A stretch of DNA of 32,773 nucleotides from contig CALXHS010000048.1 in NCBI GenBank assembly GCA_944388165.1, positions 1-32,773 of the forward strand, in the 5' to 3' direction. Under the pieces are notes generated by a model. That model was not told where the DNA came from. It made no database searches and saw nothing but the letters and a program-made list of their open reading frames with translations. Shown here in pieces: positions 346 to 16,064 of the stretch; position 1 is the stretch's first letter, and each line of letters starts with the position of its first letter. Source of the stretch: an uncultured Gemmiger sp. GTDB taxonomy: Bacteria > Bacillota > Clostridia > Oscillospirales > Ruminococcaceae. A program made the translations under genes and the position numbers.

Positions 346-380
346 AAGCTGATTGGGAAAATTCCTGACCAGCTTTTTAT
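346..380 (+). terminator. Intrinsic terminator after the partial coiled-coil gene
   Basis: AAGCTG (346-351) pairs with CAGCTT (370-375), with additional GG/CC pairing inside and a T-rich tail TTTATTG. It lies 15 bp after the stop codon of the upstream gene and separates it from the helicase operon. Confidence 0.6.
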
Positions 381-575: not shown

Positions 576-3500
576 ATGAATTTGATTGTTTATAAAGGAT
601 TTTCTCTGAATTTTCTTGAAGGTATAGAAGAAAAGCCCTTAGTTGAAACGGAAGTGAGCGACAAAGTAGATATTATGTCGTTTGACAGAAGAATACGCAA
701 ACGACTGAATATGGCGCTTATTGAGATGGATGAGAATGATACGGTTTGGATTACTTATGAAGAGTATTCCTTGATCAAGGCACAGATCGATGAAGCAATA
801 AAAGAGGATGGATTAACGGTTTTAATCTATCGTAACAACCTTTACCCGGATTATTATCCCATACCGTTTGAACTTCCTAATGGAGTGTCTGAAGAAATAA
901 CACGAGTGCTAAGTGGAGATAGTGCAAGTGACGTTTCAAAAGAATGTCAAAAGTTTACGTCCGTTTATAATGCCCTAGTTAATATTGATGGCGCGTACTA
1001 TGGCAGCTTTTGCAATTATGAGTATGACAAGAATGATGGTATTAGTATACAAGACTATTATCCTAGTGTAGTAACAATTGAAGAAGGGCTGACATGTGGA
1101 GAATATAATGTGTTTCTAAATGATGATGTTGACACATATCTGCGGGATCTTGCACACATTGCAGCACAAAAGCCATCGGTTATAGGAATCAGATCTACAG
1201 AAGGCTATGTATCAAAGCGCATGCAGGAGTCTTTGCAAGCATACTGTGTAGAAAATCATATTCGTCTGGTAAGGTTTCATGAGATTCTCCCAGAAGATCA
1301 AACAATGGAGGATGCGCTTGCTAATATCGCTAAAAATGATATTGGTATAGCCGGTTTTACTAGCTTTAGAAAGATTAAATTTTATAAAAATCCTGATATT
1401 GATAAGGAAGTGATAGAGCTTTCTCAAGGGCAGATAATTCAGGAAATTATACATCAGGCTGAAAAATCTTATGATGTAGATTCGGGAAATTCGTTCAGAG
1501 ATATTTTTATCACAGCATCAACGGGAGCAGGCAAATCTGTTATGTTTCAGATCCCTGCTGTTTACCTTGCACAAAAATATAAAAAACTAACAATCATTAT
1601 CGAGCCAGTCAAGGCTTTGATGCAAGATCAGAAAGAAAAGCTAAACAAAAATGGATATACAAGAGTTGCGGCATTTAACTCTGACCTGATTTCGCAAGTT
1701 GAGAAAGAGGCGGTTTTAAAGAAAATCAAAGAAGGTGAAATAGATCTTTTATATCTGAGTCCTGAAACGCTCCTCTCTTATTCTATTGAAACGATTATAG
1801 GTGAGAGAGAAATAGGGTTACTTATAGTTGATGAAGCCCATATTGTTACAACCTGGGGTGTAGGATTTAGACCGGATTATTGGTATCTAGGCGGATACAT
1901 TAATAGGTTGCGCAATCAAATTCAAACAAAAAAGGGAATTAAAAGAAAAGTGTATCATTTCCCGGTATGTGCATTTACGGCAACTGCGATTAATGGGGGA
2001 ATTGATGACTCGGTAAGCGATACGGTTATAAGTCTGTATATGGAAAACCCTATAAAATATATTGGTTACGTACGCAGGGATGACATCGGTTTTGATATTG
2101 TCCATAAAGCTGAAGGAAAAAGATTGCCAAAACCAGAGTATGAGGCTGAAAAGACAAAAGCGCTAGATGCGCGTATTAAAGGGTGGCTTGCAAAAAACGA
2201 AAAAACGATTGTCTATTTTCCGTATGCATCTTTGGCAAGCGATGCCTTTAAAGGAATTCGCGGCTTTACTGGAATGACCGTAGATAAAAGAATAGGATTG
2301 TATACGGGTAGAAATGTAGATGGCTTAAATCGTGAGGCTTTTAATGCCGCGAAAAGAGAAACCTTTGAGGGATTTCGTAAAGGGACGACACCAATTATGT
2401 TGGCAACAAAAGCATTTGGTATGGGAGTCGATGTGGATGATGTCCAGAATGTGTATCACTATGCAGTGACCGGGAATTTATGTGATTATGTGCAAGAAAT
2501 CGGGCGTGCCGCGCGTAAAAAGGCGATGAGAGGTACGGCTATTACAGATAATTACTATAATGATATCAATTTTATGAAGGTTTTGTTTGGTATGTCTCAA
2601 ATTAGGCAATATCAAATCAAAGCTGTTATCGAGGGAATCTATAACACATATAAAAACAAAAAAGAAGCCCGTAGTTTTTTGATTTCGCCAGAATCATTTA
2701 CTTATATATTCAATGGTAAAGGTGCAAAAGATGAGGATCAGTGCATAAATAAATTGAAAACCTGTCTTTTGATGCTTGAAAAGGATTTCTTTGATAAATA
2801 TAACTTTAAAGTTATTGTTTCTCGCCCGCAAAGTGTTTTTACGAAAGCGTTTGTCTGCATAGATAAGGAACATGAAAAGGAAGTATTGTCTTCCCGATAT
2901 GGGGTTTGTTTTAAGTTTATTGAAAAAGGACGTCATTATGAAAGGCAAGCGGATGGCTCTGTATTAAGCGATATAGGAGATATTTATTCTATTGACTTGA
3001 AAGAAATATGGGAAAATTACTATCCTAATATTTCTTTCCCACAGTTTAAATATTGGTATTTTAATCCGGATTCTACAGCCAGTGATAAAGTGGTTATTAT
3101 GCCAGAGATAAGGTCTTTTTTTGCACCTAGACAGAAAGTTAATATCGAAGCGCGGAAGGATATGCTGCTTTCTGACTTGCGACAGACAATTTTGGATGAT
3201 TTTGAATATATAGCCAATACGCTGTATACAAGCTTTGGAAGAAGTTATTTCGCTTTAGATGATATGGTAAAAATCCTTCGCGAGAGATTCGGAATAACAA
3301 ATGCTAGAATTATTTCGAATTCTTTGTTCGAATTGGTTGATCCGAATGGGCGCTGCGTAAAAAGAAGAACTAGTGAAACTACAGGAAAGACTCAATATTC
3401 TCTAACAAATGGAAATTTTAAAGAATTCATGCGCAGGCCAATTTTGAAGTCGAGAATCATTAGCAATTTATCGAAAATATGTGATTCTTGTAGCTATTCC

Positions 3501-4169
3501 AGTTATATTAGTTTGACATCAGACACCACATCTGTTGTTGCACTTAAATTGTTATCGATCTTCGATTATATTACATATGAGGTTCTGGGAGGTTCGGAAC
3601 CGGAAATTTTTATTCGTTTAAATGATCCAAATAAGTTTAGAAGTATTGTTATGGGGCAAACGTATTATTCGAATGGTTATGTAAGCAAAGCAAAGCAAAA
3701 ACATGATCGCGATATAGAAGTTCTACTTCACTTCTTCAATGGAATAGAAACAGACGAGGAAAGATGGGACTATATTGAAAATTATTTCCTTGGCTATGAT
3801 GTGCTGTGTAATATTAAGCCTCAAAATGTTAACGCAGTTAAGATGACGCGGGCGATAGACAAAGAACATTCCTATCAAACAACAAAATTTAAGAGCTGGG
3901 AAGATGTGGGAGACTTTTTTGACGAGAATGATCATGTGATCATTAAAGAACTTGGAGAAACAGGTATTAACATTCCTGAATATCTTCAGACAGAAATCAA
4001 AAAAGCGGATGTAGGTGGCGATATTCTCATGTCTTGGCCTTCTCGTGATACTTTAATTTGCCAGCAAGATACATCTGACAAAACAATGGAATTTTTTAGA
4101 GTGAGAGGTTGGCATGCATATAAAATTAACGCGATTGATTACGAATCTATAAAAAAGGAATTGAGCTGA
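576..4169 (+). CDS. Large RecQ-like superfamily 2 helicase, first gene of a candidate defence pair
   Basis: A 1197-residue protein with a complete SF2 helicase core of RecQ character in its middle. Visible motifs are Walker A TGAGKS (residues 316-321, Lys320), DEAH (419-422), motif V around KAFGMGVD (612-619) and motif VI QEIGRAAR (640-647). The first ~300 residues and the last ~500 match nothing I recognise; no zinc-binding RecQ-Ct cysteine set or HRDC domain is evident, so it is not housekeeping RecQ, which is about half this size. It presumably unwinds or translocates on nucleic acid using ATP. The stop codon is one base before the ATG of the NERD-helicase gene (TGAAATG), implying translational coupling and joint function. 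The gene is strikingly AT-rich compared with the core genes right of 6500, a sign of horizontal acquisition. A role in anti-phage or anti-plasmid defence is inferred from architecture and context only. Confidence 0.85.
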   Translation: MNLIVYKGFSLNFLEGIEEKPLVETEVSDKVDIMSFDRRIRKRLNMALIEMDENDTVWITYEEYSLIKAQIDEAIKEDGLTVLIYRNNLYPDYYPIPFELPNGVSEEITRVLSGDSASDVSKECQKFTSVYNALVNIDGAYYGSFCNYEYDKNDGISIQDYYPSVVTIEEGLTCGEYNVFLNDDVDTYLRDLAHIAAQKPSVIGIRSTEGYVSKRMQESLQAYCVENHIRLVRFHEILPEDQTMEDALANIAKNDIGIAGFTSFRKIKFYKNPDIDKEVIELSQGQIIQEIIHQAEKSYDVDSGNSFRDIFITASTGAGKSVMFQIPAVYLAQKYKKLTIIIEPVKALMQDQKEKLNKNGYTRVAAFNSDLISQVEKEAVLKKIKEGEIDLLYLSPETLLSYSIETIIGEREIGLLIVDEAHIVTTWGVGFRPDYWYLGGYINRLRNQIQTKKGIKRKVYHFPVCAFTATAINGGIDDSVSDTVISLYMENPIKYIGYVRRDDIGFDIVHKAEGKRLPKPEYEAEKTKALDARIKGWLAKNEKTIVYFPYASLASDAFKGIRGFTGMTVDKRIGLYTGRNVDGLNREAFNAAKRETFEGFRKGTTPIMLATKAFGMGVDVDDVQNVYHYAVTGNLCDYVQEIGRAARKKAMRGTAITDNYYNDINFMKVLFGMSQIRQYQIKAVIEGIYNTYKNKKEARSFLISPESFTYIFNGKGAKDEDQCINKLKTCLLMLEKDFFDKYNFKVIVSRPQSVFTKAFVCIDKEHEKEVLSSRYGVCFKFIEKGRHYERQADGSVLSDIGDIYSIDLKEIWENYYPNISFPQFKYWYFNPDSTASDKVVIMPEIRSFFAPRQKVNIEARKDMLLSDLRQTILDDFEYIANTLYTSFGRSYFALDDMVKILRERFGITNARIISNSLFELVDPNGRCVKRRTSETTGKTQYSLTNGNFKEFMRRPILKSRIISNLSKICDSCSYSSYISLTSDTTSVVALKLLSIFDYITYEVLGGSEPEIFIRLNDPNKFRSIVMGQTYYSNGYVSKAKQKHDRDIEVLLHFFNGIETDEERWDYIENYFLGYDVLCNIKPQNVNAVKMTRAIDKEHSYQTTKFKSWEDVGDFFDENDHVIIKELGETGINIPEYLQTEIKKADVGGDILMSWPSRDTLICQQDTSDKTMEFFRVRGWHAYKINAIDYESIKKELS

Positions 4170-4170
4170 A

Positions 4171-5889
4171 ATGGCACATATTTATCCACAAAAGGAAGAT
4201 TTAGCAGATGTTCCGTATTCAGAGATTAGAGTCTATGAATTGCTCGAAAAATTACCGGATACATATTATGTATTCCACTCGGTTCAATGGGCAAAAAAAG
4301 GAAGCAGATGGAAAACCACATGGAAAGAAAATGATTTCCTTATCCTAAACAAAAATTTGGGAGCCCTTGTGCTTGAGGTTAAAGGCGGTGAAATCGAATG
4401 TCATGGTGGTGTTTTTCATCAGATAAACTTTCAAACGCGGGAAGAGAATATCCTTAATCCACAGAAGAAAAACGATCCACTATCACAAGCTATTGATGGT
4501 ATTTATCACTATCGTAGGCAAATTGATAACATTGCTTTTAATCTTGAGGATAGATTTCCGATAGAAGCTGCAGTTTGGTTTTCAACATGTAAGATAAAAG
4601 ATAAAATTGCAAGCTTCCCTTTAAAATATCGAGAAGTTGATGGAGCGATACTCGGAGACGAGGATTTTCAGTACGGAGCTAATGCAATTAGAAAGGTATT
4701 CGACTTTTACGAGAATTATAATAAAACAAGCGTTTCGGATGAGGAATTTCAGAGAATACTCGATCTCATCGCAAATGATTTTGAGTTAATTACAGCACCA
4801 GCGGCACGCAAGGGAGAATTGGATCACGCTTTTTTGAAACTGACAAATGAGCAGACTGGACTATTGGATTATATTTCAGAGCAAAAAAGCGCTACAATAC
4901 AAGGAGTTGCGGGTACGGGTAAAACTTTAATAGCAAAGGAGGCCGCCCGAAGATTTGGACTTGAAGGGAGAAAAGTTTTATTTCTATGCTTTAATAGATT
5001 TTTGTATATGGACCTTCTACGCCGGTATCCATACGAGAATGTGACTTATTATAATTTGAATACTTTTATAGCCAAATACAGACCAGGATTTGACATATCA
5101 AATGCTGCACGACGCTCTGCTGAGCTACAAAAGATAAGTTGGGACGCATTGGACTTCGATGATGTAATAGTGGATGAAGCACAGGATTTTGAAAATTCAG
5201 AGATCCTCTATTTCAAAGATTTTACTGAGCTGAGAGAAGGGCATTTCTTTGCTTTTTATGACAAAAACCAGCTTGTTACAACGCGAGAAGTTCCAGAATG
5301 GATTAGAAACTCAGAATGCAAATTACTCCTGACCAAGAACTGTAGAAATACGCGTGAGATCGCTTTAACAGCTTATAATGTCATTGATGTAGAGCTCAAT
5401 CAAAAAGTAATGATGGTTGATGGGGAACGAACAGGCATCAGTTTTGTAAAAGGTCAGGCTTTACTCAAGCTTGCAACTTTGCTTAAATTACTTACAGGCG
5501 ATAAATATGGCTATGAGTATTCTGATATAGTAATTTTATCATTGCAAAAAGAGGAAAACTCTATAATGAATGGGGTGAATAGACTTGCGGGAATACCGAT
5601 CCTAAAAGAAAGGTCCAATACCGCTGTAATGTTCACTACATCACGCAAGTTTAAGGGGCTAGAAAGCCGTGTTGTTATCGTTACGGATATCAATGAAAGC
5701 TGCTTTACTAATAGTGATATGAAGAAAAACTTTTATGTTGCGTGTTCACGTGCTACGCAGCAACTTGTACTATTTGTGAATGCAGACGATGACCAAATCC
5801 AAATTATGGCAGATGCTATTAGTAAAAATAAATTTGCTGCTAAAGGGAGAATCGCAATGAAAACACAAGCAAAAATCTGGGAATTATAA
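4171..5889 (+). CDS. NERD-domain nuclease fused to UvrD-like SF1 helicase
   Basis: A 572-residue two-domain protein. The N-terminal ~130 residues look like a NERD (nuclease-related, PD-(D/E)XK-type) domain: Asp55 in ENDFLIL followed by EVKGG (69-73), giving the D...ExK catalytic pattern. From ~residue 225 there is a superfamily 1 helicase/ATPase: Walker A GVAGTGKT (245-252), Walker B DEAQ (335-338), the segment TSRKFKGLESRVV (490-502) matching the UvrD-type motif before the C-terminal strand, and motif VI-like YVACSRA (522-528). It should couple ATP-driven movement on DNA or RNA with cleavage. NERD plus SF1 helicase is the architecture of single-protein nuclease-helicase immunity enzymes, but here it is paired with a large RecQ-like helicase one base upstream. 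AT-rich composition like its partner. The start ATG is set by the one-base junction with the preceding stop. Confidence 0.85.
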   Translation: MAHIYPQKEDLADVPYSEIRVYELLEKLPDTYYVFHSVQWAKKGSRWKTTWKENDFLILNKNLGALVLEVKGGEIECHGGVFHQINFQTREENILNPQKKNDPLSQAIDGIYHYRRQIDNIAFNLEDRFPIEAAVWFSTCKIKDKIASFPLKYREVDGAILGDEDFQYGANAIRKVFDFYENYNKTSVSDEEFQRILDLIANDFELITAPAARKGELDHAFLKLTNEQTGLLDYISEQKSATIQGVAGTGKTLIAKEAARRFGLEGRKVLFLCFNRFLYMDLLRRYPYENVTYYNLNTFIAKYRPGFDISNAARRSAELQKISWDALDFDDVIVDEAQDFENSEILYFKDFTELREGHFFAFYDKNQLVTTREVPEWIRNSECKLLLTKNCRNTREIALTAYNVIDVELNQKVMMVDGERTGISFVKGQALLKLATLLKLLTGDKYGYEYSDIVILSLQKEENSIMNGVNRLAGIPILKERSNTAVMFTTSRKFKGLESRVVIVTDINESCFTNSDMKKNFYVACSRATQQLVLFVNADDDQIQIMADAISKNKFAAKGRIAMKTQAKIWEL

Positions 5890-5918: not shown

Positions 5919-5986
5919 CCTTACTTCTTTGTGCTTCTCTCCACAGCCCTGAGCTGCCGTGGATAAGAAGCAGAAAAGAAGCAAGG
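5919..5986. repeat. Long imperfect hairpin at the right edge of the AT-rich island
   Basis: CCTT (5919-5922), CTTCTTT (5924-5930) and TGCTTCT (5932-5938) pair in order with AAGG (5983-5986), AAAGAAG (5975-5981) and AGAAGCA (5966-5972), giving 18 pairs with single mismatches; CCAC/GTGG (5941-5944, 5959-5962) extends the apex. There is no T-run directly after it on the plus strand, so it is not a standard terminator. It lies 30 bp after the NERD-helicase stop codon, where base composition begins to shift to that of the core genome. Confidence 0.55.
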
Positions 5987-6033
5987 CGCCTTGTGGATTC
6001 TGGCTGAAGTTGCGAAAACTTCTGCGTGAATGA

Positions 6034-6062
6034 TTGTAAAATGCACGGTTCTGTGTTATTAT
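6034..6062 (+). promoter_or_regulatory. Promoter of candidate small RNA 1
   Basis: TTGTAA (6034-6039), 17-bp spacer, TATTAT (6057-6062). No convincing coding region follows; the next strong signal is a terminator at 6158-6190. Confidence 0.5.
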
Positions 6063-6068
6063 TGCCTC

Positions 6069-6190
6069 CGGAAAACGCTTAAACCGAAGCAACCAGAACA
6101 CATTTGCCGCACCGGAAACAGTTCAGCAAGCGCTGATTGGTTCTTTTGCCTTTATCAAGCCGCCGACCCTTTTGGGCCGGCGGCTTTTTT
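6069..6190 (+). ncRNA. Candidate small RNA 1 with terminator
   Basis: A ~120-nt transcript is predicted between the promoter at 6034-6062 and a strong intrinsic terminator: AGCCGCCG (6158-6165) with CCC (6167-6169) pairs to GGG (6174-6176) and CGGCGGCT (6178-6185), TTTT loop, T-run 6185-6190. Inside it GAAACAG (6115-6121) pairs with TTGGTTC (6137-6143) and TCAGC (6123-6127) with GCTGA (6132-6136) to form a two-part stem capped by AAGC. A short open frame crosses the region but has no ribosome site and covers the terminator. I do not recognise a known RNA family (not tmRNA, SRP RNA, or a riboswitch class I know). The 5' end is inferred. Confidence 0.45.
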
Positions 6191-6297
6191 GCTGCAAAAA
6201 GATGGAAACACGCCCTCATTCGGAACAAAATTCACCAGCCCGGGCGGGCAAAGTCTGTGCAAAAGCCCGATAACAAGTGAAAAATCCTGAAAATCTA

Positions 6298-6326
6298 TGG
6301 ACAACCCCCGAAAAGTGAAGTATAAT
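6298..6326 (+). promoter_or_regulatory. Strong promoter of the G5/3D gene leader
   Basis: TGGACA (6298-6303), exactly 17 bp, consensus TATAAT (6321-6326). Transcription should begin near 6333, leaving a ~180-nt leader ahead of the G5/3D protein gene. Confidence 0.65.
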
Positions 6327-6331
6327 AACCC

Positions 6332-6448
6332 GGAACAATTGCCGGGAAAGTCTCCGGCAGGGATTGTTTCAACGCTTTTGTTTTTCGCGGCATCTTTGCC
6401 CATGCATAAGGTGCCGGCCTTTGCGGCCGGCCTTTTCTTATGCGCCGC
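6332..6448 (+). ncRNA. Structured leader or small RNA 2 with internal terminator-like hairpin
   Basis: Two hairpins fill the leader. The first pairs GGAACAAT (6332-6339) with ATTGTTTC (6363-6370) and GCCGG (6341-6345) with CCGGC (6354-6358). The second pairs GCCGGCC (6413-6419) with GGCCGGC (6425-6431), followed by CTTTTC, and is wrapped by GCATAAG (6404-6410)/CTTATGC (6437-6443) and GCGGC (6387-6391)/GCCGC (6444-6448). The inner GC stem plus T-run could terminate transcription, making this either an attenuator for the downstream gene or a separate ~105-nt RNA. I looked for the c-di-AMP (ydaO) riboswitch often found before cell-wall lytic genes and did not see its conserved elements. Confidence 0.45.
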
Positions 6449-6511
6449 AAAAGTTGTAAACGACCGGCAGCCCGTTTAAGGGCGCCGCATCCAAAAAAGG
6501 CAGGAGCTTGC

Positions 6512-7642
6512 ATGTTATCAGTCAAAACCCGTGAACATATCCGCCGCTGGCTGGAAACCACCGGCCTGCGCTGCGCCGTGCTGCTGTGCGGGGGCGTTTC
6601 CCTGGGCATCTCCCTGGCTGTCGTCAGCGACCGCATGCACATTGTGGAAATCAGCGACACCCACGGCCAGGCCGGGGTCATCGTCACCTGTGCCACCGAC
6701 GTGAACACCATCGTGGACCAGGCGGGCCTGGCTGCCCCCGGCAGTGAGGACGAACTCCAGATCGTGGAAAGCAACGGCCGGGACCGCATCCACGTGCTGC
6801 GTGCCTTCACTGTGCCCGTCACCGCCGACGGCACCACCACCGACCTGGTGGCCACCGATGAAACGGTGGGAGAACTGCTGGATGAAGCCGGCATCGAGGT
6901 GGGGGAGGCAGACATTGTGGAACCCGCCCTGGACGAAGTTCTGGAGCGGGGGGACAGCGTCACCCTGCAGCGGGTGGAGTACGTGGAGTACACCACCGAG
7001 GAAGTCATCCCCATTGAAACAGAATACAGGGAATCCAGCCTGTACTACCGCGACGCCGACGCCCAGACCGTATTGGAAGAAGGCCAGGAAGGTCTGGACG
7101 TGGTCACCTGGCGGGAAGTCTGGGTGGACGGTGAGCTGACCGAAACGGTGGAAGCCGGCCGTGAAACGGTGGTGGCTATGGAACCCGCCGTGGTCAAGTG
7201 CTACGGCGAAGGGGTTCCGGTGTCCATATTCACCGGCCCCGAAGTGGTGGACGGTGTCCCCGTGGAAGGGGTGGAAGCCGTCTATACCAGCAAGCGCTCC
7301 ACCGGCTACTCCGCCTCCAGCACGGCGAAAGGTGCCTCCGGCCAGCGCCTGACCTACGGCACCGTGGCGGTGGACCCGTCGGTCATTCCCTACGGCACCC
7401 TGATGTACATTACTTCGGACGATGGCCGCTTTGTCTACGGCTACGCCTATGCCGCCGATACCGGCACCGCCCTGGTGACCGGCCACGCCTTTGTGGACCT
7501 GTATTATGAGACCTACGAGGAATCGGTGACCAGCGCGGTGATCCCGGTGACAGTGTATGTCATCGACGAGGAGACCGCTGCCGCCTATAAAGAAACCAAC
7601 GACGCCATCCGGGAAGCGGACCTGGCCGACCACCACGGATAA
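6512..7642 (+). CDS. Secreted cell-wall protein with DUF348, G5 and 3D domains (YabE-like)
   Basis: A 376-residue membrane-anchored or exported protein. One hydrophobic segment (~residues 20-40) follows a positively charged start. Then come two DUF348-like ubiquitin-fold repeats (~45-150; the second includes VGELLDEAGIEV), a G5 domain (~150-225) and a C-terminal 3D domain (~275-355) with the signature spacing DPSVIPYGTLMYI, YAADTG and FVDLYY, whose three Asp residues form the active site in MltA-type and Rpf/YabE-like proteins. The family acts on peptidoglycan, as stationary-phase or resuscitation-type lytic enzymes. The ATG at 6512 is chosen because AGGAG lies just upstream and the hydrophobic segment then sits correctly; an in-frame ATG at 6440 would overlap the terminator hairpin. 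Preceded by a structured leader that may control it. Confidence 0.85.
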   Translation: MLSVKTREHIRRWLETTGLRCAVLLCGGVSLGISLAVVSDRMHIVEISDTHGQAGVIVTCATDVNTIVDQAGLAAPGSEDELQIVESNGRDRIHVLRAFTVPVTADGTTTDLVATDETVGELLDEAGIEVGEADIVEPALDEVLERGDSVTLQRVEYVEYTTEEVIPIETEYRESSLYYRDADAQTVLEEGQEGLDVVTWREVWVDGELTETVEAGRETVVAMEPAVVKCYGEGVPVSIFTGPEVVDGVPVEGVEAVYTSKRSTGYSASSTAKGASGQRLTYGTVAVDPSVIPYGTLMYITSDDGRFVYGYAYAADTGTALVTGHAFVDLYYETYEESVTSAVIPVTVYVIDEETAAAYKETNDAIREADLADHHG

Positions 7643-7653
7643 TCCAATGCACA

Positions 7654-7698
7654 AAGCGCCCCCGCCGCGGCTTGCTGCCGGACGGGGGCGCTTCTGTT
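7654..7698. terminator. Bidirectional terminator between the G5/3D gene and dapF
   Basis: AAGCGCCCCCG (7654-7664) is perfectly complementary to CGGGGGCGCTT (7683-7693). T-rich DNA follows on the plus strand, and it sits between two convergent genes. Confidence 0.75.
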
Positions 7699-7726
7699 TA
7701 CCTTTATTATAAGAAGGGCAGGGGAC

Positions 7727-8581
7727 TCACACTTCCACCCGGCCCACAAAGGCGGTCTCGGCGGGACCGGCCATCTGCACGGCGTCGTCGGCATCCACGG
7801 TGATGGACAAAGTGCCGCCCAGCAGCTCCACCTGCACCGCCTCGCCCCGGGGACAGATGCCCCGCAGGACCATGGCGGCCACGGTGGCGCAGGCGCCGGT
7901 ACCGCAGGCCAGAGTCTCGCCGCTGCCCCGCTCCCACACCCGCATGACCAGGTGGTGGGGGTCACGCACATACACGAACTCGGTGTTGGTGCCTTCGGGG
8001 AAGGCAGGGTGCTTCTCGAAATCAGGTCCCATGGCGGCCAGCGCTGCCCCGGTGGGCAGGGTCTCCAGGTCAGGCCACTCCACGATGCAGTGGGGGTTGC
8101 CCATGCTCACGCAGGCTACATCCCAGCTGCGGTCCGCCGCCACCAGGTCGGCGTGGACCAGGGGGCCGGTTCCCAGACCCACGGCGGGCAGGGCGTCCGG
8201 GTTGGCGTCAAAGCGGCCCATGTCCGCCTGCCACATGCCTTCCCCCAGGCGGCGCAGGGTCTTGCGACCGGCCATCAGGGTGTCGATCTCGATCACGTCC
8301 TTGGCCATGCCGTGTTCATACAGGTACTGTGCCACGCAGCGCACCCCGTTGCCGCACATGCGGCCCTCGCTGCCGTCGGCGTTGAACATCCGCATGGTGG
8401 CGTCGCCCCCCGCCAGCACCGGCGGACAGATGCAGATGATGCCGTCCGCTCCGATGGAAAAGTGACGCCGGGACAAAGTGCGGCTCCAATCCGCAATGTT
8501 TTCCGGCAGGCCGGTCTCGCGGCAGTCCAGATAGATATAGTCGTTGCCGCAGCCGTGCATTTTGGTGAATTCCAGTTGCAT
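7727..8581 (-). CDS. dapF: Diaminopimelate epimerase
   Basis: A 284-residue protein that interconverts LL- and meso-diaminopimelate in the lysine/peptidoglycan pathway in the cytoplasm. The family's two catalytic cysteines are both present: Cys76 in MCGNG and Cys226 in ACGTGACAT. The N-terminal KMHGCGNDY is the classic start signature of DapF. Length is normal for the family. ATG start with AGGAGG close upstream on the minus strand. It stands alone with its own promoter, convergent with the preceding G5/3D gene and divergent from acpP. It implies meso-DAP-type wall precursors. Confidence 0.97.
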   Translation of the reverse strand: MQLEFTKMHGCGNDYIYLDCRETGLPENIADWSRTLSRRHFSIGADGIICICPPVLAGGDATMRMFNADGSEGRMCGNGVRCVAQYLYEHGMAKDVIEIDTLMAGRKTLRRLGEGMWQADMGRFDANPDALPAVGLGTGPLVHADLVAADRSWDVACVSMGNPHCIVEWPDLETLPTGAALAAMGPDFEKHPAFPEGTNTEFVYVRDPHHLVMRVWERGSGETLACGTGACATVAAMVLRGICPRGEAVQVELLGGTLSITVDADDAVQMAGPAETAFVGRVEV

Positions 8582-8622
8582 AAAAGGCCCTCCTGTGTAC
8601 GCTTTCCTGTACTCTCTCCTCT

Positions 8623-8651
8623 ATCATATCGCTTTTGGGGGCGGTGTACAA
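8623..8651 (-). promoter_or_regulatory. dapF promoter
   Basis: On the minus strand TTGTAC (8651-8646), 17-bp spacer, TATGAT (8628-8623), giving a leader of about 35 nt to the dapF ATG. Confidence 0.6.
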
Positions 8652-8681
8652 CCGCCGGGCCACAAAAAAGTTCCGTTGACC

Positions 8682-8712
8682 TTGACAAGGTGCATGGGAT
8701 ACGATATATAAT
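8682..8712 (+). promoter_or_regulatory. acpP promoter
   Basis: Consensus TTGACA (8682-8687), 17 bp, TATATA (8705-8710); an overlapping TATAAT (8707-8712) would give 19-bp spacing. It divides the dapF and acpP transcription units. Confidence 0.75.
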
Positions 8713-8777
8713 TACATGAAGACTTGCATTCTGCCCGTTAACCCGCGGGCAAACATAGATTGAAGGAGAGTTATAGA

Positions 8778-9014
8778 ATGGAATCCGAAGTTTTTGAGCG
8801 CATCCGTGAGTATCTGGCCGACCAGCTGGACGTTGAGCCGGAAAAGATCACCCCCGACAGCGACATTGTGGAAGATTTCGGCGCCGACAGCCTGGACGTT
8901 ATCGACATGATCACCACCCTGTCCGACGAATTCGGCGTGGAGATCCCCGATGAGGATATCGAGAATTTCCGTACCGTGGGCGACGTGGTCAGCTACGTGG
9001 AGGAGCGCCTGTAA
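8778..9014 (+). CDS. acpP: Acyl carrier protein
   Basis: A 78-residue, strongly acidic four-helix protein that carries growing fatty acyl chains on a phosphopantetheine arm during type II fatty-acid synthesis. The attachment serine is Ser38 in the signature GADSLDVIDM, with the usual FGVEIPDEDIENF segment after it. The ATG at 8778 follows AAGGAGAG at an ideal distance and gives the normal family length; an upstream ATG at 8760 would overlap that ribosome site. Strong promoter upstream. The gene sits apart from any fab cluster and 36 bp before proS, so the two may be cotranscribed although not functionally linked. Confidence 0.96.
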   Translation: MESEVFERIREYLADQLDVEPEKITPDSDIVEDFGADSLDVIDMITTLSDEFGVEIPDEDIENFRTVGDVVSYVEERL

Positions 9015-9050
9015 TCCCTTTTAGAATTGTAGAAAGTGTGAGGAAAAGCA

Positions 9051-10490
9051 ATGGCAAACGATAAGAAAAAGATGGTGGAAGCGATCACCGCGCAGGAAGT
9101 GGATTTTGCGCAGTGGTATACCGACATCTGCACGAAGGCCGAACTGGTCGAATACTCCAGCGTGAAAGGGTTCGTGGTGCTGCGCCCCTATGGCTACGCC
9201 ATTTGGGAGAACATCCAGAAGAACCTGGACGCCCGCTTCAAGGCCACCGGCCACGAGAACGTCGCCATGCCCATGCTGATCCCTGAAAGCCTGCTGAAGA
9301 AGGAAGGCGAGCTGGTCAACGGCTTTGCCCCCGAAGTGGCCTGGGTCACCGCCGGCGGCAGCGAACCCCTGGAAGAACGCCTGGCGGTTCGCCCCACCAG
9401 CGAGACCATGTTCTGCGACCATTTCTCTCATGTGCTGCAGAGCTACCGCGACCTGCCCATGCTGTACAACCAGTGGTGCAGCGTGGTCCGTTGGGAAAAG
9501 TCCACCCGTCCTTTCCTGCGCACCCGTGAATTCTGGTGGCAGGAAGGCCATACTATCCATGAGACTGCCGCCGAGGCCGAGGCCGAGACCGAGCAGCAGC
9601 TGAACTGCTATGCCGATTTCTGCGAAAACGACCTGTGCATCCCGGTGGTCAAGGGCCGCAAGACCGACAAGGAAAAGTTTGCCGGTGCCGAAGCCACCTA
9701 CACCATCGAAGCTATGATGAAGGACGGCAAGGCCCTGCAGAGCGGCACCAGCCACTTCTTCGGCGACAAGTTCTCCCGCGCCTATGACGTGACCTTCACC
9801 GGCCGGGACAACACCCTGCAGTATCCCTTCCAAACTTCCTGGGGCGCTTCCAGCCGTCTGATCGGTGCCATCATCATGACCCACGGCGACGACGACGGCC
9901 TGATCCTGCCCCCGGCCATTGCCCCGGTGCAGGTGGTCATCGTTCCGGTGGCCGCCCATAAGCCCGGCGTGCTGGAAAAGGCCCGGGAACTGGCCGCTTC
10001 CATCGGCAAGTACGCCCGCGTGAAGCTGGATGACTCCGACAAGGCTCCCGGCTGGAAGTTCGCCCAGTGGGAAATGAAGGGCGTGCCTCTGCGCCTGGAA
10101 GTGGGCCCCCGCGACATCGAGCAGGGCCAGTGCGTGCTGGTCCGCCGCGATACCCGCGAGAAGCAGTTCGTCAAGTTCGAGGAGCTGGAGACGGTCGTTC
10201 CGGCCGCCATGCAGGCCCTGGCCAAGGACCTGTACGACCGCGCTCTGCAGAACCGGGAAGCCCGCACCGTCAGCGCCACCACCATGGAAGAGGTCAAGGA
10301 GAAGGTGGCAGCCAAGACCGGCTTCGTCAAGACCATGTGGTGCGGAGACCTGGCCTGCGAGGAAGCCACGAAGGAGCAGGCGGGGCTGTCCAGCCGCTGC
10401 ATGCCCTTTGAACAGGAGCACCTGTCTGATGTTTGCCCTGTCTGCGGCAAACCCGCCAAGACGATGGTCGTCTGGGGCGTTGCGTATTAA
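9051..10490 (+). CDS. proS: Prolyl-tRNA synthetase, short zinc-type
   Basis: A 479-residue class II aminoacyl-tRNA synthetase that charges tRNA-Pro. It is the archaeal/eukaryote-like form: no long editing insertion between motifs 2 and 3, and a C-terminal zinc-binding region with paired cysteines (CEEA near residue 433 and CPVCGK near 464) ending in the conserved terminal Tyr of GVAY. Class II motif 2 is seen as [13 protein letters not shown], and the proline-site segment VRPTSE is present. This form is common in clostridia in place of the long bacterial one. ATG start with GAGGAAAAG upstream. Followed directly by a strong terminator. Confidence 0.97.
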
Positions 10491-10500
10491 GCTCACTCTG

Positions 10501-10527
10501 GCAGCGCCCTGCGGGGCGCTGCTTTTT
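10501..10527 (+). terminator. proS terminator
   Basis: GCAGCGCCC (10501-10509) pairs with GGGGCGCTGC (10513-10522), followed by TTTTT. It begins 10 bp after the proS stop. Confidence 0.85.
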
Positions 10528-10554
10528 GGTTTGGGGGCATCGTGTCCCCAAACC
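10528..10554. repeat. Second perfect hairpin after proS
   Basis: GGTTTGGGG (10528-10536) and CCCCAAACC (10546-10554) form a 9-bp perfect stem with a 9-nt loop immediately after the proS terminator T-run. No T-run follows; it could stabilise RNA ends or shape the leader of the next gene, whose ribosome site lies 13 bp further on. Confidence 0.5.
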
Positions 10555-10583
10555 GCCTATTTTGCCGGAAAGGTCGTTGCCGC

Positions 10584-11651
10584 ATGTTCCTTGTTCTGAC
10601 CCTGGGGGTATACGCCGTGGGCTTGGTGCTGACTGCCGTGGGCAGCCGGCTGGCCGGGCGCTGTGCTACCTGGTGCTGCGCCTTGTGCGGGTTCCCCATG
10701 TGGGTGGTGTCCGGTACGGTGGCAGCCCTCAGCGTGGCGCTGCCCCAGCTGGTGCTGGCCTTTCTGGCGTCGGGCCTTTCCATCACCTCCATGGCGGTGG
10801 GGGTGGCCCTGGCGGGGGCTGTTACCGACCTGGGGCTGGTGCTGGCCCTGTGCCTGCTGCGCCGCTCGGTCACGGTGGACAGGGGAGAGTTCTGCCGCAA
10901 ATGCATCATCCTGCTGGCGGCCTGCCTGGTGCTGGTCTTTTTCGCCGGGGACGGCGTGCTCACCCACACCGGGGCGGGGCTGCTCATGGGCTTGTTTGTG
11001 CTCTTTGTGCTGGAAAGCATCCTCTACCAGTACCGTCTGGCCTATGATGAGGACCTGCAGCCCATCGGGGTGGGGCCCCACCGTCTGCCCCGGTCCGCGG
11101 CGGTGCCCGCGGTGCAGACCATGGCGTTCCCCGCCATGAGCCTGTTCAACAGCGCCAAGAATCTTTTCGGCATGCTCTTCGGGGCGGCGCTGCTCACGGT
11201 GGGGGCCTGGGCCCTTCTGTACAGCGCCACCGTGCTGGCCAACCTGACCGGCACCATCCAGGCCCTGTGGGCGGCTACCCTCATCTCCTTCGGGTTCAGC
11301 CTGCCCCTGCTGGCGGAAGTTTTGCACCATCCCTTCGGTTCGGTGTGGAAAAAATTTGCAGTGCGCTGCCGGGTGCATCCGCCCGCGGCCCTGCCCATGC
11401 AGATGCTGAACAGCGCCATTCTCAGCCTGACCTTTGTGCTGCCTTTGTGCAGCCTGACCTACCGTAAGCATCTGCCGGTGGGGGCCCAGTTCCGCTGGTA
11501 CGATATGCCCGCCTGCCTGCTTCTGGGCCTGATTCTGCTGCTGCCCGCTTTGCTGAAAAAGCGGCTCTACCGGTGGCAGGGGGCAGCCTGCCTGGCTGTC
11601 TATGTCGTCTATGTGGCCGCCGTGCTGCTGGCCCCCTTGTCCGGCGCCTGA
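10584..11651 (+). CDS. Multipass membrane protein resembling a degenerate Na+/Ca2+ exchanger family member
   Basis: A 355-residue protein with about ten hydrophobic segments. Two places line up with the alpha-repeat signature of CaCA-family exchangers (normally like ALGTSLPEL): ALSVALPQLVLA (residues 48-59) and ISFGFSLPLLAEVL (234-247). In both repeats the Glu that coordinates the cation is lost (Gln55 and Leu242). The two-repeat layout with a polar middle loop (~150-180, containing YDEDLQP) also fits the family. I infer a descendant of a YrbG-like exchanger that no longer transports by the usual mechanism, or transports something else. The ATG at 10584 is chosen over 10542 because GGAAAGG (10568-10574) lies just upstream. 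Alternative: an unrelated polytopic protein with chance resemblance. Confidence 0.6.
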   Translation: MFLVLTLGVYAVGLVLTAVGSRLAGRCATWCCALCGFPMWVVSGTVAALSVALPQLVLAFLASGLSITSMAVGVALAGAVTDLGLVLALCLLRRSVTVDRGEFCRKCIILLAACLVLVFFAGDGVLTHTGAGLLMGLFVLFVLESILYQYRLAYDEDLQPIGVGPHRLPRSAAVPAVQTMAFPAMSLFNSAKNLFGMLFGAALLTVGAWALLYSATVLANLTGTIQALWAATLISFGFSLPLLAEVLHHPFGSVWKKFAVRCRVHPPAALPMQMLNSAILSLTFVLPLCSLTYRKHLPVGAQFRWYDMPACLLLGLILLLPALLKKRLYRWQGAACLAVYVVYVAAVLLAPLSGA

Positions 11652-11671
11652 ACCTTTGCCATACACAACAA

Positions 11672-11712
11672 AACACCCCCGAAAGGCTTCTGCCCTTCGG
11701 GGGTGTTTTTGC
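11672..11712. terminator. Bidirectional terminator between convergent genes
   Basis: AACACCCCCGAA (11672-11683) pairs with TTCGGGGGTGTT (11696-11707), with T-runs on both strands. It serves the exchanger-like gene (plus) and the GNAT gene (minus). Confidence 0.85.
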
Positions 11713-11715
11713 GTA

Positions 11716-12264
11716 TTACAGGTATTTGATCATCCAATATACATCGGCGTAGTGGCCGTCGGCGTATTTCATGTTGCGGGGCAGAGTGCCGCAGCGCACG
11801 AAGCCCAGTTTCTCGTACAGAGCCACAGCGGCTTGGTTGTCGGCTACCACCGTCAGTTCCGCCTGCTCAAACCCGGCGGCTTTGGCCTGTTCCAGCACCG
11901 CGGTCATCATCCGGGTGCCGATGCCCTTGCCCCAGAATTTTTGGTACAAGGCAACGGACACTTCGCACCGGTGCCCCACCCGCTGAAAGGGTCCCACAGG
12001 GGAGAAGGAACAGCTTCCTGCCAGTTCGCCGTCGCAGAAGCCCAGCAGCATCAGGTCCCGGGGAGCATCCGCCCGCCCTTGCAGGAACTGCCGTTCCGCT
12101 TCGGGGGTAAAGCCGGGTTCCTCCGGCTCCCGCAAAAGATACGGGGTCTCGGCGGTAGTCTCCTGCAGGCAGGCCAGCATGGCTTCGGCGTCCCCGGGTG
12201 CAGCGCTGCGGATGGTCAGGGTGGTGCCGTCCCGCAGGGGGATGGCGGTTTCAGGATAGTGCAT
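11716..12264 (-). CDS. GNAT-family N-acetyltransferase
   Basis: A 182-residue acetyltransferase of the GNAT fold, using acetyl-CoA. The CoA pyrophosphate-binding motif appears as QKFWGKGIGTRMM (Q/RxxGxG/A type), and the C-terminal strand-helix NQAAVALYEKLGFVRCGTL is typical of RimJ/RimI/PhnO-like members. The substrate cannot be told from sequence. The ATG at 12264 has AAGGAGGC six bases upstream; a longer frame to 12324 would overlap the kinase gene. It lies 14 bp after the histidine kinase stop codon on the same strand, so it is probably the third gene of the two-component operon. Confidence 0.88.
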   Translation of the reverse strand: MHYPETAIPLRDGTTLTIRSAAPGDAEAMLACLQETTAETPYLLREPEEPGFTPEAERQFLQGRADAPRDLMLLGFCDGELAGSCSFSPVGPFQRVGHRCEVSVALYQKFWGKGIGTRMMTAVLEQAKAAGFEQAELTVVADNQAAVALYEKLGFVRCGTLPRNMKYADGHYADVYWMIKYL

Positions 12265-12278
12265 GACAAGGCCTCCTT

Positions 12279-13718
12279 TTATTCGCCCTGGCCCACCGGC
12301 AGGGTGAAGGTGAACCGGCACCATTTGCCCTGTTCGCTCTCCACCCGGATCTGCCCGCCGGACAGATTGATGAGCACCTTGCAGATGTGCAGGCCCAGAC
12401 CGCTGCCCCGGGTGTTCAGCCCGCGGGAACGGTCCTCTTTGTAGAAGCGCTCAAACACAAAGGGCAGGGCTTCGGGGGCAATGCCCTCGCCGGTGTTTTC
12501 CACTTCCACCACCACCATGCCGCCTTCCCGTTTGACCGAGAAGCGGATCACGCCCTGGGGCGGGGTGAACTTGATGGCGTTGTCCACCAGGTTGTACACC
12601 ACCTGATGCACCAGGTCCGGGTCGGCGTATACCGGCTGCCGGGCGGGTTCCAGGCCCTGGATGTCGATCTGGCCGTCCTCAATGCGCTTTTCATCCGAGA
12701 GCACCACGTCGGTGATGGTATCCCAGATGTTGCAGTTGCGGGCCTGGACCTTGTATTCGCCGGATTCCAGCTTGGTGATGTCCAGCATATTCTGCACCAG
12801 CCGGGCCAGGCGTCCCGTCTCCTGGGATACGATGCCCAGGTAATGCTTGTATTCCTCGGCGGGGATGGTGCCGTCCAGCATGCCGTCGATAAAGCCCTTG
12901 ATACTGGTCATGGGGGTGCGCAGCTCGTGGGCGATGTTGCCCATGAACTGGCCCCGGGCGTTGTCGATGGTCTGCAGCCGGGCCGCCATGTTGTTGAAGG
13001 TGGTGGCAAAATCCGCCAGCTCCTCGCAGCCGTCTACCGGGGCGCGGGCGGTGAAGTCACCGCTGCCCAGCTGGCGGGCGGCCTCCCCAATCTGTTCGAT
13101 GGGGGCGCTGATCTTGCGGGCGAAGAGGATGGAAATGGCGATGGCAAAGAGCAGAATGCCCACTGCCGACACAAGGAAGATGTTGAGCAAATCGCTCACA
13201 TACTGGTGCAGGGCGTCCATGGAAGTGGCCACAAAGAGGTAGCCCCCGGTGGTCTGGCCTTCGATGCGCCGCCCGGCCACATAGTATTTGGTGCTGAACA
13301 CCCCGCCCAGGGTGTCCTCGCTGTAATAGTCCACGCCGCTGTCCAGCACGTCCAGCACTTCCGCGGGCACGTTGTCCCCGGTCAGGTCGGCGGCCTCGGT
13401 GTGCAGCAGGATCTTTCCGTTGGGGTCCGCAATGAAGATGACCGCGTCGGAAGAGGTGTGGAACAGCTCAAAGCCGCTCTCAATGTTCTCCTTCAGCGCC
13501 TCGTCGTTGATGGGCTGGGTCACGTCGTTGCCCTGGGCGGCAAAGCGGTTGCTCAGGGCGGTGGCGCCGTCCAGCACGCTGGTCAGTGCACTCATCCGTT
13601 CGCCGGAAAAATAGGCAATGGACAAGGCGCTCTGGATGCCGCACATCAAAGCCAGGCTCAGCAGCAGGACCAGGGCGATGCTGGTGAACAGCTCGCGGCT
13701 GATGGTTTTTCTGTGCAC
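12279..13718 (-). CDS. Membrane sensor histidine kinase
   Basis: A 479-residue kinase. Two membrane segments (~12-37 and ~178-200) bracket an extracytoplasmic sensing domain of ~140 residues with a Cache/PAS-like look (IFIADPNGKILLHTEA). After them come HAMP (~200-252), the dimerisation/phosphoacceptor domain with His264 in NIAHELRTP, and an ATPase domain (~365-478) with the N box around VYNLVDNAIKFT and G boxes around GEGIAPE and RGSGLGLHICK. It should autophosphorylate on His264 and pass phosphate to Asp54 of the partner regulator encoded immediately upstream. The start is GTG, directly abutting the TAA stop of that regulator, which points to translational coupling. The signal sensed is unknown. 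Confidence 0.93.
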   Translation of the reverse strand: MHRKTISRELFTSIALVLLLSLALMCGIQSALSIAYFSGERMSALTSVLDGATALSNRFAAQGNDVTQPINDEALKENIESGFELFHTSSDAVIFIADPNGKILLHTEAADLTGDNVPAEVLDVLDSGVDYYSEDTLGGVFSTKYYVAGRRIEGQTTGGYLFVATSMDALHQYVSDLLNIFLVSAVGILLFAIAISILFARKISAPIEQIGEAARQLGSGDFTARAPVDGCEELADFATTFNNMAARLQTIDNARGQFMGNIAHELRTPMTSIKGFIDGMLDGTIPAEEYKHYLGIVSQETGRLARLVQNMLDITKLESGEYKVQARNCNIWDTITDVVLSDEKRIEDGQIDIQGLEPARQPVYADPDLVHQVVYNLVDNAIKFTPPQGVIRFSVKREGGMVVVEVENTGEGIAPEALPFVFERFYKEDRSRGLNTRGSGLGLHICKVLINLSGGQIRVESEQGKWCRFTFTLPVGQGE

Positions 13719-14408
13719 TTATTCCTTCACCTCGAACTTGTAGCCCACGCCCCACACGGTCTTGAGGTTCCACTGGTCGGAAGCGCCCTCCAGCTTTTCA
13801 CGCAGGCGCTTAACGTGCACATCGATGGTGCGGGAGTCTCCGTAATACTCAAAGCCCCACACCTCGTCCAGCAGCTGGTCGCGGGTATACACCCGGTTGG
13901 GATGCCCGGCCAGGCAGGCCAGCAGTTCCAGTTCCTTGGGCGGCGCGTCCACCACCTTGCCCTTGACCTTCAGCTCATAGCGGTTCATGTCCAGGTGCAG
14001 GTTGTCGAAGCTGTACACGCCCTTGTCGTCCTCATTGGGCACGGCGCAGCGGCGCAGCACCGCTTTGATGCGGGCGGTCACTTCCTTGGTCTCGAAGGGC
14101 TTGACGATGTAGTCGTCGGCGCCCAGTTCCAGGCCCAGGACTTTGTCGTAGGTCTCGCCCTTGGCGGTGAGCATGATGATGGGGGTCTTGTGCTCCTGCC
14201 GGATGCGGCGGCAGACCTCCCAGCCGTCCATATCCGGCATCATCACGTCCAGCAGCACCATGTCCGGATGAATCTTGTCAAATTCCTGCAAGGCGGTCTT
14301 GCCGTCGTGGGCCAGCGTTACCGCAAAGCCTTCCTTGACCAGATACAGCCGCAGCAGTTCGCAGATATTTTTATCGTCGTCCACAACAAGGATCTTTTCG
14401 TTTGCCAT
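13719..14408 (-). CDS. OmpR/PhoB-family response regulator
   Basis: A 229-residue DNA-binding regulator. Receiver domain 1-~120 with acidic pocket DDD (10-12), phosphoacceptor Asp54 in LLDVMMPDMDG, and the conserved Lys in VKPFE; C-terminal winged helix (~130-227) with RVYTRDQLLDEVWG and SRTIDVHVKRLREKL, the recognition-helix region of the family. First gene of the minus-strand operon regulator-kinase-acetyltransferase. ATG start with GGGAGG upstream. It is close to PhoP/WalR-type regulators, but targets cannot be named from this window. Confidence 0.95.
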   Translation of the reverse strand: MANEKILVVDDDKNICELLRLYLVKEGFAVTLAHDGKTALQEFDKIHPDMVLLDVMMPDMDGWEVCRRIRQEHKTPIIMLTAKGETYDKVLGLELGADDYIVKPFETKEVTARIKAVLRRCAVPNEDDKGVYSFDNLHLDMNRYELKVKGKVVDAPPKELELLACLAGHPNRVYTRDQLLDEVWGFEYYGDSRTIDVHVKRLREKLEGASDQWNLKTVWGVGYKFEVKE

Positions 14409-14445
14409 TCCTGTTCATTCCCTCCCAAAAGGTATCATTGTTCTT

Positions 14446-14474
14446 ATTATACGGGGCAAATGTTGAAAAATAAA
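14446..14474 (-). promoter_or_regulatory. Possible promoter of the two-component operon
   Basis: On the minus strand a consensus TATAAT (14451-14446) lies about 40 bp before the regulator start codon. The -35 region 17 bp upstream (TTTATT) is poor, so the promoter may be weak or depend on an activator. Confidence 0.45.
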
Positions 14475-14606
14475 GAAGAAACCGTGATTTTTTCGGCATT
14501 TCCGGTAAAGGATGTGCAAAGTTTTCTCCGGCCCTTCCCCGAGGGGGCCGCATATGCTATACTGGAACAAAAGCCCCGGCCCCTGGGGACGAAAGGAGCA
14601 TGCACC

Positions 14607-14987
14607 ATGGCAGATACCAGCCGTTTTGTCTGGCAGGACCGCAAGCGCATTGCTTTCGGTCTGCCGTTTACCTTTACCACCTACCACCTCACCAGGGAAA
14701 AGCTGCTCATCCGCAGCGGCATCCTGAACACCAAGGAGGAGGAGATCCGTCTCTACCGCATCATGGACGTGACTTTGCGCCGCTCTTTATGGGAGCGGAT
14801 GTTCGGCCTGGGCACCATCCACTGCTGCTCGGCGGACAAATCCACCCCGGAATTTGACATCCGCTGGATCCCCAACGCCGCCGATGTGAAGGAACAGCTC
14901 TCCAACATGATCGAGGAGGAGCGCCAGAACAAACGGGTGAGCAGCCGGGAATTTATGACCGACGAGGACGACGACGGGATGCTGTAA
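14607..14987 (+). CDS. Small bacterial PH-domain protein
   Basis: A 126-residue protein with the short bPH_2 (YdbS/YdbT-like) fold signature: a strand pair TTYHLTREKLLIRSGIL, then EEEIRLYRIMDVTLRRSLWE, then GLGTIHCCSADKS. In this family RxxDV and the following hydrophobic/arginine segment recur closely. No membrane segment is seen, unlike most members, so it may be the soluble version; the acidic tail TDEDDDG ends it. The ATG at 14607 follows GAAAGGAG. It is divergent from the two-component operon and ends before a strong terminator. Function unknown. Confidence 0.75.
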   Translation: MADTSRFVWQDRKRIAFGLPFTFTTYHLTREKLLIRSGILNTKEEEIRLYRIMDVTLRRSLWERMFGLGTIHCCSADKSTPEFDIRWIPNAADVKEQLSNMIEEERQNKRVSSREFMTDEDDDGML

Positions 14988-16039: not shown

Positions 16040-16064
16040 GATAAGTATCTGGCGGTCGCGGCCC

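Follow-up and report, generated by a model that had tools for sequence, protein, structure and literature searches.

A contig of 32,773 bases from an uncultured Gemmiger species (CALXHS010000048.1, analysed complete and hereafter called the window) carries near its left end two adjacent genes that we term A (576..4169) and B (4171..5889). A encodes a 1197-aa RecQ-like superfamily 2 (SF2) helicase and B a 572-aa protein joining a NERD nuclease domain to a superfamily 1 (SF1) helicase. Both open reading frames (ORFs) lie on the forward strand, one base apart, as an initial annotation made from the sequence had described. We consider it probable that A and B together make up a mobile, two-subunit immune complex of nuclease-helicase type, with A as sensor or loader, B as effector and a C-terminal tail of A as the coupling between them. 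The proposal of the initial annotation is supported in part by what follows: helicases from two superfamilies, the second with a NERD nuclease, make up a coupled module that is conserved and lies on inserted DNA. The C-terminal tail, which it missed, is an addition.

Gene A was assigned to PADLOC family C3a193 by a nearly full-length match (572 bits, E 7.7e-172) that aligns residues 53-1075 with profile positions 50-982 out of 983. Pfam recognised DEAD (78.6 bits) and Helicase_C (59.2 bits), and listed no nuclease domain. The helicase core, delimited by an alignment of 21 relatives (residues 283-660; 1422..2555), contains the Walker A motif TASTGAGKS (K320), DEAH at 419-422, TATA at 468-471 and QEIGRAAR at 640-647; K320 and the DEAH residues, to which the initial annotation had drawn attention, are invariant in 21 of the 21 aligned proteins. 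The core is RecQ-like, its best matches both by sequence and by fold being RecQ and RECQL5 structures. Canonical RecQ was rejected, with scores under the NCBIfam cut-offs (TIGR01389, 158.6 vs 640.2; TIGR00614, 144.4 vs 219.8) and no RecQ zinc-binding, RQC or HRDC domain found in A by Pfam at E<=1. In the AlphaFold2 (AF2) model of A (mean pLDDT 79, pTM 0.53), the N-terminal region (residues 1-260; 576..1355) gave 10-residue pLDDT means of 67-93. This region has no named domain, nothing being above the Pfam cut-off, and the alignment of relatives showed K7, G8, N87, N88 and P95 to be invariant within it.

Gene B matched the PADLOC family RTasNERD-Hel (DRT-associated NERD helicase) from end to end (167.5 bits; residues 1-541 to positions 1-516 of 519). 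Its NERD domain (residues 18-136; 4222..4578) was identified as PF08378 (30.8 bits against a cut-off of 22.1, E 4.4e-7). The SF1 domain (residues 224-541; 4840..5793), supported by Pfam, alignment and fold, includes a UvrD_C_2 match (27.9 bits vs a cut-off of 27.4), a Walker A motif, GVAGTGKT (K251), and DEAQD at 335-339. The motif residues predicted to be functional by the initial annotation (D55, E69, K71, K251 and D335/E336) proved invariant in 14 of 14 aligned proteins, as did Q84 of the nuclease domain. Foldseek placed SLFN11 and SLFN14 at the top for B, with GajB (8tk1) at rank 28.

The pairing of the two genes is conserved. A scan of genome contigs with A yielded 24 loci, 20 of which were counted together with the window and a viral contig (L085), the 3' end of A being readable in all 22; L010 and L021, where the contig ends before the 3' end of A, and L022 and L025, which are distant or fragmentary, were excluded. 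B lies directly downstream of A in 18 of these 22 loci, counting one remnant (L004) and one frameshifted copy (L003), and the count contains two near-duplicate sets (L005/L013 and L007/L008). Rare co-occurrence, the outcome that the initial annotation had named as speaking against its proposal, was therefore not what we found. Across 15 examined loci of the 18, the reading frames overlap or nearly touch, the distance from A stop to B start being -4 to +1 nt (+1 in the window), with the junction start chosen where B had several in frame. Furthermore, the two proteins diverge in parallel: over 11 loci the Mantel correlation of A and B distances was 0.92, a value reached by none of 9,999 permutations, and one to which the shared ancestry of the carriers contributes. 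These carriers include Lachnospiraceae, Oscillospiraceae, Eubacteriaceae, Anaerovoracaceae and Veillonellaceae. No published description of the A-B pair or of the shared tail was found among open-licence papers.

The close form of A is rare. A phylum sample gave a match at E<=1e-60 in 16 of 398 genomes, the window's own included (nine above 400 bits, seven confined to the core), whereas 14 control genomes gave no such match. Within the family, 10 of 396 genomes matched at E<=1e-40; the window's own was the only close one, the others being 33-38% identical, and a B match was present in three of the 396. In a phage collection, 25 records matched A partially, none covering 80%, and no record matched B.

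The C-terminal tail of A (residues 1078-1197; 3807..4166) is our proposed coupling domain for B. AF2 predicts a low-confidence linker (about residues 1081-1097) followed by an alpha/beta domain of ~100 aa, and tailed A proteins run 123-129 residues beyond a conserved YFLG. B was found next door at 18 of the 19 loci with a tailed A and at none of the three with a tail-less A (L011, L012 and L023; Fisher p 0.0026, uncorrected for relatedness). On the A tree, which was built without L052 (an antisense ORF), L008, L053, L079, L086 and L106, the tail changes three times, read as one gain and two losses, since L011 and L012 branch within the clade of tailed proteins. In L011 (1454-7163) the genes directly upstream of the tail-less A encode a DEDDh-like exonuclease and a UvrD-like protein whose C-terminal part matches PD-(D/E)XK, which may reflect replacement of the partner. 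Pfam gave no identity for the window's own tail, and one of 13 tail members matched NA-iREase3; since that match is weak (E 0.013) and confined to a single member, a dead Vsr/REase-like fold for the tail is only a guess. Druantia helicases of types I and II have been reported to carry inactivated Vsr domains C-terminally (Bell et al., PMC12458937).

The same tail occurs on helicases of a second family. When the C-terminal ends of 544 proteins of at least 200 aa from the collected loci were scored with a profile built from 14 A tails, the best match outside A was L126, a 1719-aa DruE-like helicase (E 2.4e-9, 32.0 bits; the best of 2,000 shuffled L126 ends scored 2.9 bits). In reverse, a profile of three DruE-like tails (L126, L128 and L084) ranked 20 of 21 A entries next, ahead of any other protein (E 4.6e-8 to 0.087); these entries count the window twice, and L010, cut by the contig end, was not among the best 30. 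With the L126 tail alone as query, A tails again ranked next. The three helicases score 605.9, 596.2 and 63.5 bits (L126, L128 and L084, respectively) against PADLOC DruE1, and a B relative follows the end of each of their genes at a distance of 1-5 nt.

With the L126 helicase as query, 199 genomes yielded 15 places, spread over 14 of them. One of the 15, in G491 (the genome of L128), has both tail and B. Thirteen stop within about 30 residues of the core and thus leave no room for a tail, and B was absent at all 12 tail-less places with 1.4-1.5 kb of downstream sequence (best 5.3 bits); L148, whose frame is cut by the contig end, and L152, in which 2 nt follow the gene, do not enter this count. 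The tail therefore tracks B in two helicase families. No significant profile match was obtained on the plasmid Druantia-like helicases L157-L160. As a separate observation, L126 (1175-11612) and L128 (569-10508) each show a row consisting of a protein unmatched in Pfam and PADLOC (1167 or 994 aa), the tailed DruE-like helicase and the NERD-SF1 helicase, which looks like a Druantia-like variant.

A and B lie on inserted DNA. Approximately the first 5.9 kb of the window is AT-rich and the remainder mostly GC-rich, and the two genes, which occupy most of the AT-rich part, have a GC content of 0.363 (A) and 0.374 (B) vs 0.618 at 7001-14900, in agreement with the contrast recorded initially. DNA alignment to a genome of the same genus (G274) begins at 5936, with 96.6% identity over 5936-6138 and 86.5% over 6221-14987. 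Because other genes (CotH-like and VTC-domain) lie to the left of the shared DNA in G274, the pair is on DNA inserted relative to that genome. The right edge of the island, marked by the start of this shared host DNA (5936..6138), is at most about 50 bases from the B stop. Of the self-contained cassette postulated by the initial annotation, the window, which represents the contig in full, contains the right edge, the left junction being beyond the contig.

By analogy with Hachiman, in which a helicase controls a nuclease (PMC12278908), A would be the sensor and loader, binding and tracking on invading or abnormal DNA. The flexible tail domain would hold B, the NERD domain of which would cut DNA while the SF1 motor of B would feed in the substrate or clear it; with the B start coupled to the A stop, both subunits would be supplied together. 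The pairing, the coupled frames, the invariant residues and the distribution of the tail are seen directly in the sequences, and from them we infer that the tail mediates contact, that the substrate is DNA, that A controls B and that the pair protects against phages or plasmids.

Several observations weigh against this reading. L006 has a tail and no B, the link of tail to B within A comes from just three tail changes, and an independent-pair test had three pairs, too few for significance. The B copies of L004 and L003 are damaged, A lacks its N-terminal part in L016 and L019, the model of B has a pTM of 0.39, and PADLOC labels are themselves predictions. The A-tail profile is weak on L128 (E 0.044, 8.6 bits) and on the fragment L084 (E 0.77, 4.6 bits); as two unrelated proteins score alike (L077_11668, 0.033; L131_12137, 0.71), the case for the tails of L128 and L084 comes chiefly from the reverse search. 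B was the route by which all three tailed DruE genes were first reached, and one only was recovered by the helicase search, so the unbiased DruE support is one tailed place with B vs 12 tail-less places without. Several B relatives of the nearer clade have no adjacent helicase. Finally, distant B relatives pair with tail-less helicases (DISARM-like in L137, SACS/NOV_C in L135 and DruE-like in L161), and the tail is therefore not required by all NERD partners.

An explanation other than immunity is that the pair is a module by which a mobile element handles DNA processing or maintenance, acting in recombination, replication restart or the protection of incoming element DNA, as RecQ-like and SF1 helicases often act in recombination. 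Among ten neighbours scanned with Pfam, four belong to mobile elements (L085 has two serine recombinases, L005 a relaxase and L016 an integrase-core protein), the other six comprising three of other families and three with no match; together with the AT-rich island in GC-rich DNA, they equally suit the mobile immune complex proposed above. We regard this explanation as unlikely. Neighbouring genes vary widely among loci, and nine larger flanking proteins, hand-picked from seven relatives and scanned with PADLOC at E<=1e-8, included four with defence matches: a type II methyltransferase and restriction enzyme near L005, a type IV enzyme near L006 and AbiU near L007. Restriction and abortive-infection genes thus lie near A at these loci, and the B family also recurs beside DISARM-like and Druantia-like operons. 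The remaining five of the nine matched no PADLOC defence family, a further point against an immune role.

It is less likely still that the effector role falls to A, with B serving only in regulation or processing, on the pattern of PsyrTA, whose RecQ-like protein is the toxic part. A does match PsyrT (138.9 bits, the best stretch being the helicase core) and is found without B in L006, L011, L012, L023 and in distant members. However, B retains an intact nuclease signature and a motor of its own, both invariant in 14 of 14 proteins, and A has no nuclease domain detectable by Pfam. The neighbour of A is a NERD-SF1 protein, and PsyrA is not among the PADLOC matches listed for either protein (here and below, the best 25 of 36 families for A and all 17 for B; the best 25 of up to 40 for other proteins). 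A role for A as an alternative Cas3-like motor serving a CRISPR effector in trans, with B as accessory, is highly improbable. In its favour, the PADLOC label of C3a193 reads 'poss. alt. Cas3', cas10/cmr1 are found in Thermomicrobium some 5 kb away from a distant B relative, and the DEDDh protein beside the tail-less A of L011 matches a CRISPR-associated DEDDh model (38.7 bits), but other scanned A neighbours have no cas gene as best match (no search aimed at cas genes or arrays was made) and the pairing of B with tailed A has no need of CRISPR.

We compared the putative A-B complex with known systems. Among the protein models of PADLOC (2023) and NCBIfam, none that stands for a named system fits the pair, and the initial annotation likewise could not place it in one. 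Its description of the module as undescribed does not extend to the proteins, since both families are already listed in PADLOC as candidates or accessories, and a NERD nuclease with a helicase of another family is already present in TALON (PMC12458937). TALON, although resembling the pair in joining a helicase to a NERD nuclease, has a YprA helicase together with TPR-CSD and TBP genes. C-terminal nuclease domains, active or dead, are reported on the helicases of YprA-family systems including TALON and ARMADA, and 'RecQ' does not occur in the main text of that paper (PMC12458937).

The C3a193 entry gives neither partner nor function, and its 983-position profile stops before the tail of A. The relatives L011, L012, L022 and L031 also match it. 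Eight distant helicases of this type (L022, L055, L056, L080, L081, L082, L107 and L108) stand directly behind a sigma-70-like gene and not before a NERD helicase; the two of these sigma-70-linked helicases that were tested (L022, and L031, which is the same gene as L056) both match the C-terminal part of MzaA. RTasNERD-Hel is defined as DRT-associated, but B is coupled to A, and the adjacent ORFs (32-331 and 6440-7642, the only ones inspected for this) gave no reverse transcriptase match in Pfam. C3a187 (NERD+UvrD) has the same domain pair as B and scores far below RTasNERD-Hel (47.3 bits).

Hachiman HamAB (PMC12278908), our working analogy, likewise has two subunits, a helicase sensor and a nuclease effector, but they belong to other families than A and B. 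Neither HamA nor HamB is among the matches listed for A or B, HamB appearing solely on the A relatives L011 (21.5 bits) and L012 (18.8 bits). Three DruE-like helicases share the tail of A and precede a B relative; A itself, with 22.1 bits against DruE, a RecQ-like core and no MZB region, does not belong to Druantia. Nor does A belong to Dpd, its DpdF score of 128.9 comparing with an equivalog cut-off of 550 (NCBIfam). Nhi is a single protein and Gabija requires GajA. B matches Nhi over residues 224-430 only (36.4 bits) and is part of a two-gene unit, and it matches GajB weakly (24.7 bits), GajA (OLD-TOPRIM) not being among the matches listed for A or B; it is accordingly placed in neither system. 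B also shares SF1 motor features with AbiO, as a weak match (41.1 bits).

The wider B family extends beyond A. In a tree of 39 B proteins, labelled according to the adjacent gene, the 14 A-linked members form one clade (support 100), nested in a 24-member clade (support 100) that adds the three partners of tailed DruE-like helicases and seven proteins beside other genes or none. More distant relatives lie beside DISARM-like operons that encode an MZB/DUF1998 protein (L100, L104, L105 and L137), beside SACS/NOV_C giants (L097, L103 and L135) and, in L161, beside a DruE-like helicase without a recognisable tail, the last 200 residues of which show no likeness to the tail as judged by eye. From these associations, B is a recurring partner of large helicases, with the tail marking one branch. 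Another RecQ-like/NERD-SF1 association, in a different gene order, is seen in L127 (346-4730), where a B relative, a 319-aa protein without identity and a 538-aa RecQ-like (DpdF/PsyrT-type) helicase follow one another on one strand. In L102 (5782-8590), on a Burkholderia plasmid, a sigma-70 gene stands directly upstream of a NERD-SF1 helicase that is a distant relative of B.

Other features of the window were also recorded. The terminator reported upstream of A was recovered as a forward-strand hairpin at about 346..375 (-13.1 kcal/mol, z -3.75), which is absent from the listing of a terminator pattern scan. The hairpin reported after B is likewise present (about 5919..5986, forward strand; -30.4 kcal/mol, z -3.0); it spans the boundary between island and host, and because its right part is host DNA common with G274, it does not simply mark where the cassette itself ends. 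The ORF at the contig end (32..331, forward strand) had no Pfam match above cut-off, and a plasmid origin for the left flank (1-575) was rejected, no plasmid DNA match being found. The 203 bases at 5936-6138 contain no recognised gene and are 96.6% identical to G274, compared with about 86% for nearby DNA. Rfam found no known RNA over the window at gathering scores, and the folding of 5936-6140 was no better than that of shuffles (z -0.02); the segment is possibly an RNA of a new type or an insertion site. An AT-rich gene (15104-16039; GC 0.386) encodes an Mrr-type restriction endonuclease domain. As the DNA match to G274 and G411 stops at 14973-14987 and restarts at 16059, this gene represents another small insertion, separated from the pair by 9 kb.

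The pairing of helicases with nucleases is a major theme in bacterial immunity, and sequence seldom reveals which nuclease is matched to which helicase. In the present case such a match is marked, in two unrelated helicase families, by a short tail. If the tail is a docking part of the proposed A-B complex, two candidate-only families would gain a partner, a probable contact surface and a role that can be tested, and the tail would predict which large helicases recruit NERD effectors. More tentatively, tail and B may form a transferable effector cassette, in which an adaptor of ~100 aa (perhaps a dead nuclease-like fold) plugs the NERD-SF1 protein into sensor helicases of unrelated families (the RecQ-like C3a193 and the DruE-like of Druantia) and is shed when the cassette is lost, once (L011) beside a UvrD-PD-(D/E)XK and DEDDh-like set. 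Were this so, immune sensor helicases and nuclease effectors would be interchangeable parts, with the adaptor predicting their partners.

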